Of a stretch of DNA of 64,000 bases, positions 20,078 to 23,315 are shown piece after piece (the first letter of the stretch is position 1; every line of letters begins with the position of its first letter). Made by a program: the position numbers and the translations under genes. Source of the DNA: an uncultured Gelidibacter sp. (GTDB lineage Bacteria > Bacteroidota > Bacteroidia > Flavobacteriales > Flavobacteriaceae). The DNA is taken from positions 1 through 64,000 of the forward strand of contig NZ_CANMTE010000002.1 in the NCBI RefSeq assembly GCF_947500795.1, written 5' to 3'. The notes beneath the pieces were generated by a model. The model was given only the letters and a program-made list of their open reading frames with translations. It made no database searches and was not told where the DNA came from.

Positions 20078-20378
20078 CTATAAGTTCAAAACATTTCCAC
20101 AGAATGAATTTTAAGAATTTCATCTAAAAAATCAGATACTGAGATGCCTCATGAACTATGAGCGAAAACGGATAAAATAAAAAGAAAGAAACCTAACGAT
20201 GGTGTCCCATTGAACGTCTGTTTCAAAAATTAAACAATTGAAACACTACAATTTACAAACCATCAAAAATAGGGTTGGTTATAATTGGTTAATTCATACC
20301 AAAAAAACAAATAGGTGATTTAGGAATTACAATAAAAGAATGAATTTTTATTACCTTGCGAGCCAATTATGTACAAAC
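20078..20378. other. Divergent intergenic region, uvrC and RimB-like gene
   Basis: About 300 bases of AT-rich sequence between two divergent genes. No gene, RNA or clear promoter for the rightward operon is recognised. Confidence 0.4.
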
Positions 20379-20810
20379 ATGCCTAAAAAAATTATTGGCA
20401 GAGTCGATAAAGCCGATTTCCCAACACTTGATCTTTTTGATATTGACATCAAAATAGATACTGGTGCGTACACCTCATCCATACATTGCCATAAGGTTTT
20501 AGTTGATTCTGACACTAATGAACTGGTCTGTTTGTTTTATGATGAAGGCCATCCGTATTACAATGGGAAAGAATTCAGGTTTAAAGATTATACCTTTGCT
20601 AAAGTTAAAAGTAGTAACGGCATTGTTCAAAAACGCTACAAAGTAAAAACGACGATGGTGATATTTGATAAAAAATATCTCATTTCCCTTACCTTGAGCA
20701 CAAGAGAAGACATGAAATATCCTGTATTAATAGGACGTAAATTCTTGACTAACAAATTTATTGTTGATGTCACGCAAAAAAATGTATCTTTTAGCAAGAA
20801 AAATAAATAG
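20379..20810 (+). CDS. RimB-like retropepsin-type protease (DUF785/Zn_protease)
   Basis: A 143-residue protein of the family once annotated as ATP-dependent zinc protease, with an aspartic-protease-like core: IKIDTGAYTSSIHC, with Asp27-Thr-Gly-Ala, and a second strand pair YPVLIGRKFLTNKFIVDV. In Pseudomonas a member of this family (RimB) works with RimK and removes glutamates from ribosomal protein S6. The start is the ATG at 20379 (MPKKIIGRVDKADFP), since the 13 residues before it in the longer frame look like leader sequence. It is first in a plus-strand set with rimK 70 bases downstream, which supports the RimB assignment. Its cleavage target here is inferred. Confidence 0.8.
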   Translation: MPKKIIGRVDKADFPTLDLFDIDIKIDTGAYTSSIHCHKVLVDSDTNELVCLFYDEGHPYYNGKEFRFKDYTFAKVKSSNGIVQKRYKVKTTMVIFDKKYLISLTLSTREDMKYPVLIGRKFLTNKFIVDVTQKNVSFSKKNK

Positions 20811-20880
20811 CCATTTTTGCTCCCTTTTAAATAGCATCATTTTAATCCTTATAAACTAAAAATTAAAGCCATCAAGCTCA

Positions 20881-21753
20881 ATGAACATCATCGTATTATC
20901 CAGAAACCCTCATTTATATTCCACGCAACGCCTTGTTGAAGCGGCAAGACAACGTAAGCACACTTGCGAAGTTATCGATCCTTTAAAATGTGACATTATA
21001 ATTGAAAAAAAGAATCCTGCCATTTTATATAAAGGCCGTGTTTTAGAAAATGTAGATGCTATTATTCCGCGTATCGGTTCTTCCGTAACGTTTTATGGAA
21101 CGGCAGTGGTGCGTCAGTTTGAAATGATGAAAGTATTTTCAGTGGTGGAATCTCAGGCTTTAGTAAGATCTAGAGACAAACTGAGAAGTCTACAAGTACT
21201 GTCTCGTGCTGGTTTGGGAATGCCTAAAACGGTGTTTTCAAATTACACAAAAGATGCGTCAGAAGTTATTGCTTCTGTTGGTGGTGCGCCATTGGTTATT
21301 AAACTTTTAGAAGGTACTCAAGGCTTAGGCGTTGTATTGGCAGAAACCAATAATGCGGCAGAATCGGTTATTGAGGCGTTCCATGGTTTGCAGGCACGTG
21401 TGATTATTCAAGAGTTTATTAAGGAAGCAAAAGGTGCAGACATTAGAGCGTTTATTGTAGATGGTAACATTGTTGGAGCAATGAAACGCCAAGGTAAGGA
21501 AGGCGAGTTTAGATCAAACCTTCACCGTGGTGGTAGCGCTGAAATTATTCAGCTTACTGATGATGAAGAAAATGCGGCATTAAAAGCGGCAAAAGCACTC
21601 GGATTGGGTGTTTGTGGTGTCGATATGTTGCAATCTGCTCGTGGGCCATTAATTCTGGAAGTGAACTCTTCCCCAGGACTTGAAGGTATTGAAGCTGCGA
21701 CCAAAAAAGATATTGCAAAAAGTATTATAAGATACATTGAACGTAACGTTTAA
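20881..21753 (+). CDS. rimK: RimK-type ATP-grasp glutamate ligase
   Basis: RimK adds glutamate residues to the C-terminus of ribosomal protein S6, and related enzymes make other glutamate chains. The 290-residue protein has the pre-ATP-grasp domain (about 1-95), then the ATP-grasp fold with [47 protein letters not shown] and the metal-binding [11 protein letters not shown]. All key blocks are intact and length fits RimK. It is flanked by a RimB-like protease upstream and by an aspartoacylase-family hydrolase eight bases downstream. Whether S6 is the substrate in this organism is not shown by the sequence. Confidence 0.92.
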
Positions 21754-21761
21754 CACCATTT

Positions 21762-22736
21762 ATGTCTAAAGACACGGAGAATATCATTACCATTTTAGGG
21801 GAAGACATTCCTTTAGGGGCGTCGAGAGAAATCAATTTTAATATTGCAAAACTCCATACCTCTACAAAAATTGAAATCCCGATCATAATTGAACGTTCAA
21901 AAATTCCTGGACCTACTATTTTATTTTCGGCAGGAATTCATGGTGATGAAATAAACGGTGTTGACATTGTCCGACAACTGATTGCAAGGCGAATTAACAA
22001 ACCAAAACGAGGCACAATTATTTGTATGCCTATTTTGAATATTTTCGGGTTCTTGAACAGTAAACGTGCATTTCCTGACGGACGGGACCTTAACCGGATG
22101 TTCCCAGGAAGCTCCAATGGTTCTTTAGCCAGCCGCGTAGCACACAGGTTAATGCATGAGATTATTCCGGATGTGGATTTGATTATCGATTTCCATACCG
22201 GTGGCGCAAGTAGATTTAACGCGGCACAGATTAGAATTGTAAAAGACAATCCTGAATTGGATGAATTGGCCCGTATTTTTGGCGCGCCTTTCGTATTATA
22301 TTCAAAACACATTACAAAATCCTTCAGAAACGCCTGTTTTCAAATGGGGAAACCCATCTTACTTTATGAAGGCGGGAAATCGTTTTTTGTAGATAATAAC
22401 ATCTCTAGAGTTGGTGTGGAAGGTGTAAAACGTATTTTGGCACATTATGACATGCTACATCCGCGCATTAAAGTATCGCCACCTAAAGTACCGACCGTTT
22501 TTATTGAAGATAGCAAATGGATTAGAGCCAAACAATCAGGGATGTTCAAAGCTCTAGTTTCGGTGAATACCAAGGTTAAAATTGATGATGTTTTGGGACA
22601 GATTACAGATCCCTACGGAAAGATTTACCACGAGGTAAAATCGAGTATTGACGGGTATATTATTAATGTGAACGAAGCCTCATTAGTCTACCAAGGCGAT
22701 GCCCTTTTTCATGTTACCAAACAGGTGAGTTCTTAA
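21762..22736 (+). CDS. Succinylglutamate desuccinylase/aspartoacylase family hydrolase
   Basis: A 324-residue zinc hydrolase of the AstE/AspA branch of the M14 carboxypeptidase-like fold. Zinc-ligand motifs are visible: GIHGDEINGVD (His and Glu) near residue 56 and DFHTGG (His) near 143, with DLNRMFPG between. The C-terminal beta domain (about 245-320) contains GMFKALVSVNTKVKIDDVLGQI. Arginine succinyltransferase genes are absent, so a role in arginine breakdown is unlikely. Eight bases after rimK and behind a RimB-like protease, it more plausibly acts on glutamylated or N-acyl products of the RimK system. The exact substrate is unknown. Confidence 0.85.
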   Translation: MSKDTENIITILGEDIPLGASREINFNIAKLHTSTKIEIPIIIERSKIPGPTILFSAGIHGDEINGVDIVRQLIARRINKPKRGTIICMPILNIFGFLNSKRAFPDGRDLNRMFPGSSNGSLASRVAHRLMHEIIPDVDLIIDFHTGGASRFNAAQIRIVKDNPELDELARIFGAPFVLYSKHITKSFRNACFQMGKPILLYEGGKSFFVDNNISRVGVEGVKRILAHYDMLHPRIKVSPPKVPTVFIEDSKWIRAKQSGMFKALVSVNTKVKIDDVLGQITDPYGKIYHEVKSSIDGYIINVNEASLVYQGDALFHVTKQVSS

Positions 22737-22745
22737 TCCACAGCA

Positions 22746-23315
22746 ATGGACAAAGCAACATTAAGACGACTCTACAAACAAAAACGACAAGCGCTTTCAT
22801 TAGAAGCGATTGACAATGGGAGTTTGGACATTTCCAACCAACTACTCAAACTTCCTATTTGGAATGCCACGTTCTACCACGTTTTTTTAAGCATTACTGA
22901 ACACAAAGAAATCAATACTGATTATATCCTCAACATTTTATCAGGGAAGGACAAGACTATTGTGATTTCCAAAAGCGATTTTGAGAGCGTTAAAATGACC
23001 CATTACCTATTAATGGATAATACAATTATTCGAAAAAACAAATGGAACATTCCCGAACCTTTTGACGGCATTGAAATTAGTGCAGATAAAATAGAAGTGG
23101 TATTTGTCCCGCTTTTAGCTTTTGATCAGCAAGGCCATCGGATTGGCTATGGCAAAGGTTTTTATGATAATTTCCTTGCAGAATGCCGCCCAGAAACCAT
23201 CAAAATTGGACTATCACTTTTTGAGGCGGAAGAAAAGATTGAAAACGTGTTTGACACGGATATCGCCTTAGATTATTGCGTGACCCCAACTCAGATCTAT
23301 TCTTTCTCTAAATAA
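22746..23315 (+). CDS. 5-formyltetrahydrofolate cyclo-ligase
   Basis: Converts 5-formyl-tetrahydrofolate to 5,10-methenyl-tetrahydrofolate using ATP, in one-carbon metabolism. The 189-residue protein begins with the basic motif LRRLYKQKRQALS and has the family signature HRIGYGKGFYDNFLAE near residue 138, preceded by VVFVPLLAFDQQG. Length is normal. It is nine bases after the aspartoacylase-family gene and is the last gene of the rightward operon. Its final 19 bases overlap the end of lspA on the other strand. Confidence 0.93.
   Translation: MDKATLRRLYKQKRQALSLEAIDNGSLDISNQLLKLPIWNATFYHVFLSITEHKEINTDYILNILSGKDKTIVISKSDFESVKMTHYLLMDNTIIRKNKWNIPEPFDGIEISADKIEVVFVPLLAFDQQGHRIGYGKGFYDNFLAECRPETIKIGLSLFEAEEKIENVFDTDIALDYCVTPTQIYSFSK

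Follow-up and report, generated by a model that had tools for sequence, protein, structure and literature searches.

The window analyzed here is a 64,000-nucleotide stretch of DNA from an uncultured Gelidibacter species (contig NZ_CANMTE010000002.1), and our subject is a run of three genes within it that encode a RimB-like protease, the glutamate ligase RimK and a zinc hydrolase of the AstE/AspA family. We find that in bacteria this hydrolase is very strongly associated with RimK, and we consider what the third gene may contribute to the turnover of RimK's product. The run and its surroundings comprise the following features:

20379..20810, + strand: RimB-like retropepsin-type aspartic protease (PF05618) with a DTGA motif; an alternative in-frame ATG lies at 20340
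20881..21753, + strand: RimK, an ATP-grasp glutamate ligase / poly-alpha-glutamate synthetase
21762..22736, + strand: RimK-linked zinc hydrolase of the AstE/AspA family (residue roles assigned by analogy with the M14 and ASPA families)
22746..23315, + strand: 5-formyltetrahydrofolate cyclo-ligase
Left of the RimB-like gene, opposite strand: uvrC and a patatin-like gene, identified by eye

The four open reading frames (ORFs) of the run are intact and closely spaced, with gaps of 70 bases between the RimB-like gene and RimK, 8 bases between RimK and the hydrolase, and 9 bases between the hydrolase and the folate gene. ORF and family scans confirm what an earlier note on this DNA had described, namely three intact genes spaced in this way on one strand and followed by a folate gene. 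The folate gene itself was rejected as a member of the module: among the loci read, a folate gene 3' of the hydrolase was confined to the window's family and to close relatives such as Aquimarina.

The RimB-like protein belongs to PF05618 (59.5 bits against a cut-off of 27) and carries the DTGA motif of the family. It is a divergent member, scoring 63.7 bits against the 200 needed for the NCBIfam RimB equivalog NF052261, and because it lies so far below this cut-off 'RimB-like' is the proper term. RimK passes NF007764 (S6--L-glutamate ligase; 393.4 bits, cut-off 331) and matches the solved RimK-type ligase 7qyr over residues 1-289 (E 1e-110). A second, remote RimK-like ATP-grasp protein of ~350 residues, scoring 42 bits against the RimK profile, is encoded elsewhere in the same genome (G000:C1:694687-695169, L081). 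The hydrolase passes PF24827 (AstE_AspA_cat; 120.4 bits, cut-off 25), has the HxxE and H zinc ligands, and is the sole PF24827 match found by a profile search of its whole genome. It was rejected as a true AstE (TIGR03242, 23.6 bits against 305.65 required), as an aspartoacylase (PRK02259, 25.3 against 180) and as DoeB (TIGR02994, 94.7 against 402.7).

Co-occurrence of the hydrolase with RimK

We searched 148 genomes of the window's phylum, Bacteroidota, with PF24827, PF05618 and NF007764, taking as full RimK any match of at least 285 bits (48 genomes, 42 of them above the curated cut-off) and as a hydrolase orthologue any match of at least 224 bits against the window hydrolase. Of the 48 genomes with full RimK, 44 have the orthologue; of the 100 others, none does (Fisher P 2e-33, with shared ancestry ignored). 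Among these 100, PF24827 matches above 52 bits occur only in G095 and G135, at 91 and 70 bits. The earlier note had proposed counting how often the three families adjoin across Bacteroidota; in our survey RimB, RimK and the hydrolase form an uninterrupted run in 30 of the 48 genomes with full RimK, far beyond chance. Nine genomes have adjoining RimB and RimK with a PF24827 family member elsewhere (in G041 a contig break separates them), three have RimB and RimK without any PF24827 match, four have RimK adjoining the hydrolase with no RimB in the genome, and in two neither partner adjoins RimK; G037 carries RimK and an unlinked hydrolase, with no RimB. PF05618 adjoins RimK, or is fused to it, in all 42 genomes that have this family. 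In five genomes of one genus (g2) a RimB-RimK fusion lies elsewhere and the orthologous hydrolase still sits beside the folate gene; a sixth genome with such a fusion (G057) has no hydrolase.

A second survey used A1, an alignment of 28 RimK-linked hydrolases, and covered the best 80 loci of at least 571 relatives, in titled genomes, some of which are probably identical to genomes of the first survey. Nearly all of these loci are from Bacteroidota and their relatives, with one metagenome-assembled genome each titled Gammaproteobacteria (G162) and Holophagae. The order RimB-RimK-hydrolase was seen at 43 of these best 80 loci and RimK-hydrolase at 18; RimK and RimB lie within 6 kb at four, and 15 have no RimK in view. 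Fourteen of the genomes behind these last 15 loci were searched, and all 14 contain RimK above the cut-off. RimK and the hydrolase are present, and PF05618 absent, in five of the 22 genomes searched whole in this survey, G162 among them. The hydrolase copy of G162 is of Bacteroidota type, which may reflect transfer or contamination of the bin.

Two further observations were made on gene neighborhoods. RimB-less RimK genes, with or without the hydrolase, adjoin genes for proteins of ~220, 667 and 248 residues (L050, L051 and L065, in G134, G107 and G130), which from their size and sequence are probably subunits of succinate dehydrogenase/fumarate reductase. Remoter AstE/AspA-family genes (L072 in G053:C30 and L042 in G064:C11) lie next to RimK-like ATP-grasp genes of other kinds, which score 46 and 17 bits against RimK, and the pairing of the two families, judged from these sequences, may have arisen more than once.

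The third survey searched 249 Pseudomonadota genomes with the A1 profile and for RimK and PF05618. Here the A1 scores fall into clearly separated classes, with 65 copies at 310-427 bits, six second copies at 250-278 and all remaining matches at or below 151. All 63 genomes with the orthologue belong to the 91 that have RimK, and none of the 158 genomes lacking full RimK has it (P 3e-37, again ignoring shared ancestry); in G375, a member of the latter set, RimK, RimB and the hydrolase are present as adjoining fragments. The 65 copies are arranged as RimB-RimK-hydrolase (32), RimK-hydrolase-RimB (4) and RimK-hydrolase (7), or are unlinked (22). Counted by genome, 61 of the 91 have both the hydrolase and PF05618, two the hydrolase only (G162 being one), 16 PF05618 only and 12 neither; very high RimK scores in some of the hydrolase-less genomes suggest that these are enterobacteria and kin of Pseudomonas. 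The six second copies are a longer paralogue (open frames of 429-542 residues), all in RimK genomes; the four compared (L239-L242, from G271, G307, G239 and G362) form a clade of their own and keep the arginines discussed below. Plasmid-borne cases include Vibrio, Salinivibrio, Phaeobacter and the cyanobacterium Acaryochloris, and a search of phages returned six distant matches only.

These distributions bear on one explanation for the gene order, that a general N-acyl amino-acid hydrolase has merely been carried along in the operon. The parent family is broad and 22 of the 65 Pseudomonadota copies are unlinked, as such an explanation would have it, yet all 22 sit in RimK-bearing genomes. The earlier note had held that a hydrolase regularly found without RimK would speak against a common module; the orthologue occurs in none of the 258 genomes without full RimK in the first and third surveys, and we have rejected incidental linkage as extremely improbable. 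The tie between hydrolase and RimK survives the loss of RimB, the fusion of RimB to RimK elsewhere in the genome, and altered gene order. Since RimB-less genomes keep RimK and the hydrolase, it is RimK and not RimB that the hydrolase follows. Because it is found only with RimK in the bacterial genomes searched whole, the hydrolase is probably a component of the glutamate-chain system to which RimK belongs. The earlier note's picture of one writer and two erasers is to this extent borne out as an association, and the eraser role it gave to the hydrolase is plausible.

Related genes are also present in Haloarchaea, where the hydrolase is back to back with a RimK-RimB hybrid on plasmids of Halorarius, Halolamina and Salinirubellus (three of 12 loci read); scans of the Halorarius and Halolamina hybrids verified their domains. 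These haloarchaeal hybrids (L252 2500-3885 and L254 3543-4865, both - strand) have their domains in the order RimK-RimB, opposite to that of the bacterial RimBK hybrids, and the two kinds would thus appear to have been fused independently. The loci with no RimK in view are from Natrinema, Haladaptatus (two), Halobaculum, Haloferax larsenii, Salinigranum, Natronosalvus, Haloarcula pelagica and Halomontanus, and their neighboring genes encode ion transporters, copper ATPases or unrelated proteins. At the Salinigranum locus a gene annotated 'carboxylate--amine ligase' lies ~2.5 kb from the hydrolase.

Active site of the hydrolase and the product of RimK

We compared hydrolase residues in an alignment of 222 rows, 193 of which are bacterial and grouped as RimK-linked (166 distinct, some genes being present twice); a Legionella lytica row was placed in the outgroup, although the tree described below puts it inside the clade. 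The zinc ligands H60, E63 and H145 are present in all 193 RimK-linked rows, as are N111, R112, E203, R102, R158 and R189, and W253 and R255 are present in at least 99%. From the M14 and ASPA families we take N111-R112 to be the pair that binds the substrate carboxylate and E203 to be the catalytic residue; R189, 14 residues ahead of the catalytic glutamate, appears to resemble the substrate-binding R168 of ASPA. The zinc active site is intact and catalytic competence is strongly predicted, and the invariant arginines would suit an acidic substrate. All seven haloarchaeal rows keep the arginines and E203. R158 and R189 are absent from all ten DoeB-type Pseudomonadota paralogues compared; judged from the alignment, these two residues mark a wider group, and R255 and Q156 a narrower one.

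In a first tree unlinked orthologues were interspersed with the RimK-adjacent rows, which therefore did not group together. A tree of 91 rows unites its 62 bacterial rows that are RimK-linked with that of Legionella lytica in a single clade (99/98), and seven haloarchaeal rows form a separate one (100/100). The window hydrolase falls within the RimK-linked clade and its genome has RimK, which makes it a member of this group.

The predicted structure of the hydrolase (mean pLDDT 93) has as its top fold matches 3cdx (Z 34.9), DoeB (33.9), 3na6 (33.2) and 2qj8 (31.1), all of them DoeB or its close relatives. Below these the model matches two Shewanella proteins (Z 29), CphZ (26.8), Csd4 (19), AstE (18.8) and ASPA (18), followed by carboxypeptidases (Z 17-18) and the cytosolic carboxypeptidase CCP5 (17.0).

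To ask what RimK modifies, we read the C-termini of 30 S6 proteins, that of the window organism and 29 from 30 further genomes (G239 gave none). S6 of this organism ends RRRTKLKQKA and is basic, as are the S6 ends in all ten RimK-bearing genomes of the window's family that were read. Among six other cassette genomes of the first survey the S6 end is acidic in G026, G022 and G123 and not in G049, G146 and G072; among five genomes without full RimK it is acidic in one (G004). In five Pseudomonadota with the hydrolase S6 ends in glutamate in G267 and G412 and in another residue in G203, G254 and G178, and it ends in glutamate in genomes with RimK only (G335, G368) and with RimB and RimK but no hydrolase (G223, G227). 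From these tails we conclude that the S6 terminus does not track RimK in the window's phylum, and that a role for S6 is possible in some Pseudomonadota. S6 (PF01250) was found in ten of 14 control genomes overall and was absent from all four archaeal controls, one of them a haloarchaeon; archaea in general are not known to have an S6 protein.

The earlier note had taken S6 as the target, with the hydrolase trimming or capping its glutamate tail as a second eraser beside RimB. RimK and RimB do act on S6 (RpsF) in Pseudomonas, according to Little and co-workers (PMC11957791), and the hydrolase accompanies RimK and remains where RimB is absent, as a second eraser might, with a terminal glutamate on S6 in two of the five hydrolase-bearing Pseudomonadota read. 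Against this proposal stand the basic S6 ends of the window organism and its relatives, an acidic tail in a genome that lacks full RimK, and the S6-less archaeal controls set against haloarchaeal plasmids that bear both hybrid and hydrolase. We have rejected S6 as the main target here: it is unlikely to be the target of the hydrolase in this organism, an S6-modifying role for the window RimK is doubtful given the basic C-terminus, and as a general account of the hydrolase the proposal is improbable. The same study reports that RimK together with RimB produces free poly-alpha-glutamate chains that reach 28-36 units, that RimB cleavage needs just five glutamates, that the hybrid of D. psychrophila did not modify the S6 tried, and that rpsF, or the C-terminal glutamate of its product, is missing in some bacteria (PMC11957791).

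We propose, with confidence evenly balanced between acceptance and doubt, that the three genes act together as a cassette for the turnover of alpha-linked glutamate chains, the third gene encoding an exo-hydrolase; exo-cleavage of such chains is its likeliest single function. RimK, the writer, would ligate glutamate into chains, either attached to an acceptor protein or in the form of free poly-alpha-glutamate; RimB would cut these chains internally; and the hydrolase would remove glutamate from the chain ends, or split the short oligomers left by RimB, and return free glutamate. That RimK's product is the substrate, and that the bonds cleaved would be Glu-Glu (or Glu-acceptor), is a suggestion to which we give equal weight for and against. 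The genes, their co-occurrence, the zinc site, the arginines and the fold come from the present analysis, and synthesis by RimK and cleavage by RimB from published work.

Several observations weigh against this proposal. The hydrolase orthologue is lacking from four of the 48 full-RimK Bacteroidota genomes and from 28 of the 91 RimK Pseudomonadota genomes, and at nine of the 12 haloarchaeal loci no gene within the region read is annotated as RimK. The Legionella lytica plasmid copy (L262 4986-6011), also with no RimK in view, lies on a long branch, has lost catalytic residues (changes at 102, 112, 158, 203 and 255) and from its sequence looks inactive. R158 and R189 also occur outside the RimK-linked group, both being kept in four of seven Bacteroidota outgroup rows (L040, L042, L043 and L045), and our confidence in exo-cleavage is slightly lowered for this reason. 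A common fold shows no function, and among solved and named enzymes the N-acetyl-diaminobutyrate deacetylase DoeB is closest in both sequence and fold, which would be compatible with N-deacylation of a small molecule.

This last point leads to an alternative, which we consider quite unlikely, in which the hydrolase removes an N-acyl cap from a small molecule glutamylated by RimK, or makes or recycles its acceptor. In mammals, aspartoacylase acts on N-acetylaspartate beside RimK-like NAAG synthetases, which provides an analogy. The nearest characterized homologue is an N-acetyl hydrolase and the carboxylate-binding N111-R112 pair is kept, but R158 and R189 have no counterpart in DoeB or in the ten DoeB-type paralogues compared, and RimB, a polymer-cutting protease, is usually encoded in the same operon.

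The association matters for how RimK is read. RimK is usually taken to be a ribosome-modification enzyme, though S6 here and in RimK-bearing relatives has no acidic tail, and a third gene that occurs only with RimK gives a direct genetic handle on RimK's product in such organisms. Where RimK occurs without RimB, the hydrolase is the best candidate for the missing eraser. A more apt name suggests itself, too, for some of the proteins annotated 'succinylglutamate desuccinylase/aspartoacylase family protein'.

Ion-transport genes beside the cassette

The glutamate-chain system may serve salt or ion balance, and not ribosomes alone. We compared 31 RimK-linked Pseudomonadota loci (mostly ~14 kb) with 39 control stretches ~100 kb away, taken from 22 of the same genomes. 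Genes for MscS, CorA, MgtE or a Na/H antiporter occur at 13 of the 31 loci and in none of the 39 controls (P 4e-6; P 1.5e-4 when all hydrolase loci are set against the controls), in a test that leans towards the cases because its profiles were seeded from case loci. A Pfam count of MscS, which is independent of these profiles, gives 159 matches in 116 Mb and an expectation of 0.58 in the case regions, where at least nine were seen in eight genomes, related genomes not being independent. An earlier single-query scan of 46 Pseudomonadota loci had found four CorA-type genes, three MgtE, one MscS and one Na/H antiporter, with none in 19 controls. The gene order on a Vibrio europaeus plasmid is rimK-hydrolase-rimB-MgtE-CorA-MscS and in Photobacterium sp. 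GJ3 it is RimK-hydrolase-CorA-MscS-MgtE; ion-transport genes also lie beside the cassette on plasmids of Salinivibrio kushneri and Vibrio nigripulchritudo. The Natronosalvus hydrolase (L346 2591-5655), with no RimK in view, is flanked by genes for a mechanosensitive channel and a diadenylate cyclase, with a cation:proton antiporter near.

These neighborhoods speak for an alternative in which the real product of RimK is free poly-alpha-glutamate: RimK would convert the large glutamate pool into this osmotically cheap polyanion at falling salt, RimB and the hydrolase would release it at rising salt, and S6 would be a secondary target, confined to some lineages. We take K05844 to be RimK. One study lists K05844 among functions commoner in brackish than in marine bacteria, for which protein charge changes were the proposed reason (PMC10219603), and another reports rimK to be 52-fold up in Photobacterium damselae at 1% compared with 3% NaCl (PMC10308900). 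Also in keeping with this alternative, hybrids occur on haloarchaeal plasmids, and S6 is missing from the haloarchaeon among the control genomes. On the other side, such neighbors are found at only seven of 80 Bacteroidota-type loci and at none of 15 unlinked Pseudomonadota hydrolase loci, the profiles of the main test were drawn from the cases themselves, and the hydrolase family is also found in genera such as Hymenobacter, which is presumably not marine. On balance we regard this alternative as unlikely, and an osmotic or ion role as a lead worth testing.

A fuller version, which we consider rather unlikely, holds that RimK, RimB and the hydrolase constitute a reversible osmotic or ion-linked glutamate store in marine and halophilic bacteria and archaea, ribosome glutamylation being a later, lineage-specific use. 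A drop in salt would lead RimK to polymerize the glutamate pool, beside mechanosensitive channels that would otherwise dump glutamate, and a rise in salt would lead RimB and the zinc hydrolase to depolymerize the poly-alpha-glutamate. If the ion or osmotic link were true, a widespread 'ribosomal' gene would become part of an osmolyte-handling system common to marine bacteria and Haloarchaea.

Comparison with known systems

Among titles and the opening parts of abstracts we found no paper that places the hydrolase in the Rim system, although the Iyer 2009 survey of ATP-grasp amidoligase neighborhoods may record it. In the Rim/Rlo papers searched for it the word 'desuccinyl' was not found, nor was 'aspartoacyl' in the fewer papers searched for that word.

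The Rim system of Pseudomonas (RimA-RimB-RimK; Little 2025, Grenga 2020) resembles the present locus in that a RimB-type protease adjoins RimK, and has one writer and one cutter. It differs in that the published operon is rimB-rimK with or without rimA, and in that S6 here has no acidic C-terminus. GGDEF genes near the cassette on some Vibrionaceae plasmids are a further likeness to the Pseudomonas system. The RimBK hybrids of Flavobacteriales and Rhodobacterales (Little 2025) combine the same two activities, to which the five g2 genomes add an orthologous hydrolase. In the window, by contrast, the two activities are encoded by separate genes, and the two haloarchaeal hybrids scanned begin with RimK.

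Two enzymes resemble the hydrolase alone. CCP5, which we take to be a tubulin deglutamylase, has the metallocarboxypeptidase fold in common with it and the deglutamylase chemistry that the earlier note proposed; it is eukaryotic, with other accessory domains, and the likeness is one of fold only, no closer than that of many other carboxypeptidases. The N-acetyl-diaminobutyrate deacetylase DoeB/EutE is the closest solved and named relative and has the same two-domain fold, but the window hydrolase fails its cut-off and DoeB has no equivalents of R158 and R189.

Cyanophycin metabolism offers a likeness at the level of the whole pathway: an ATP-grasp synthetase (as we assume CphA1 to be) makes the polymer, another enzyme cuts it, and a hydrolase whose fold is of the same class releases single amino acids. 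The polymer differs, being Asp-Arg and not glutamate, and CphZ is remote by sequence (profile E 3e-6 over ~60 positions). CphZ, annotated with the same family name as our hydrolase, is a cyanophycin dipeptide hydrolase, cyanophycin being synthesized by CphA1 and cleaved by cyanophycinase (PMC10206079). The earlier note had called a role of this kind new for an AstE/AspA-family protein; this holds for glutamate chains, and for the breakdown of poly-amino acids by this family CphZ provides the precedent.

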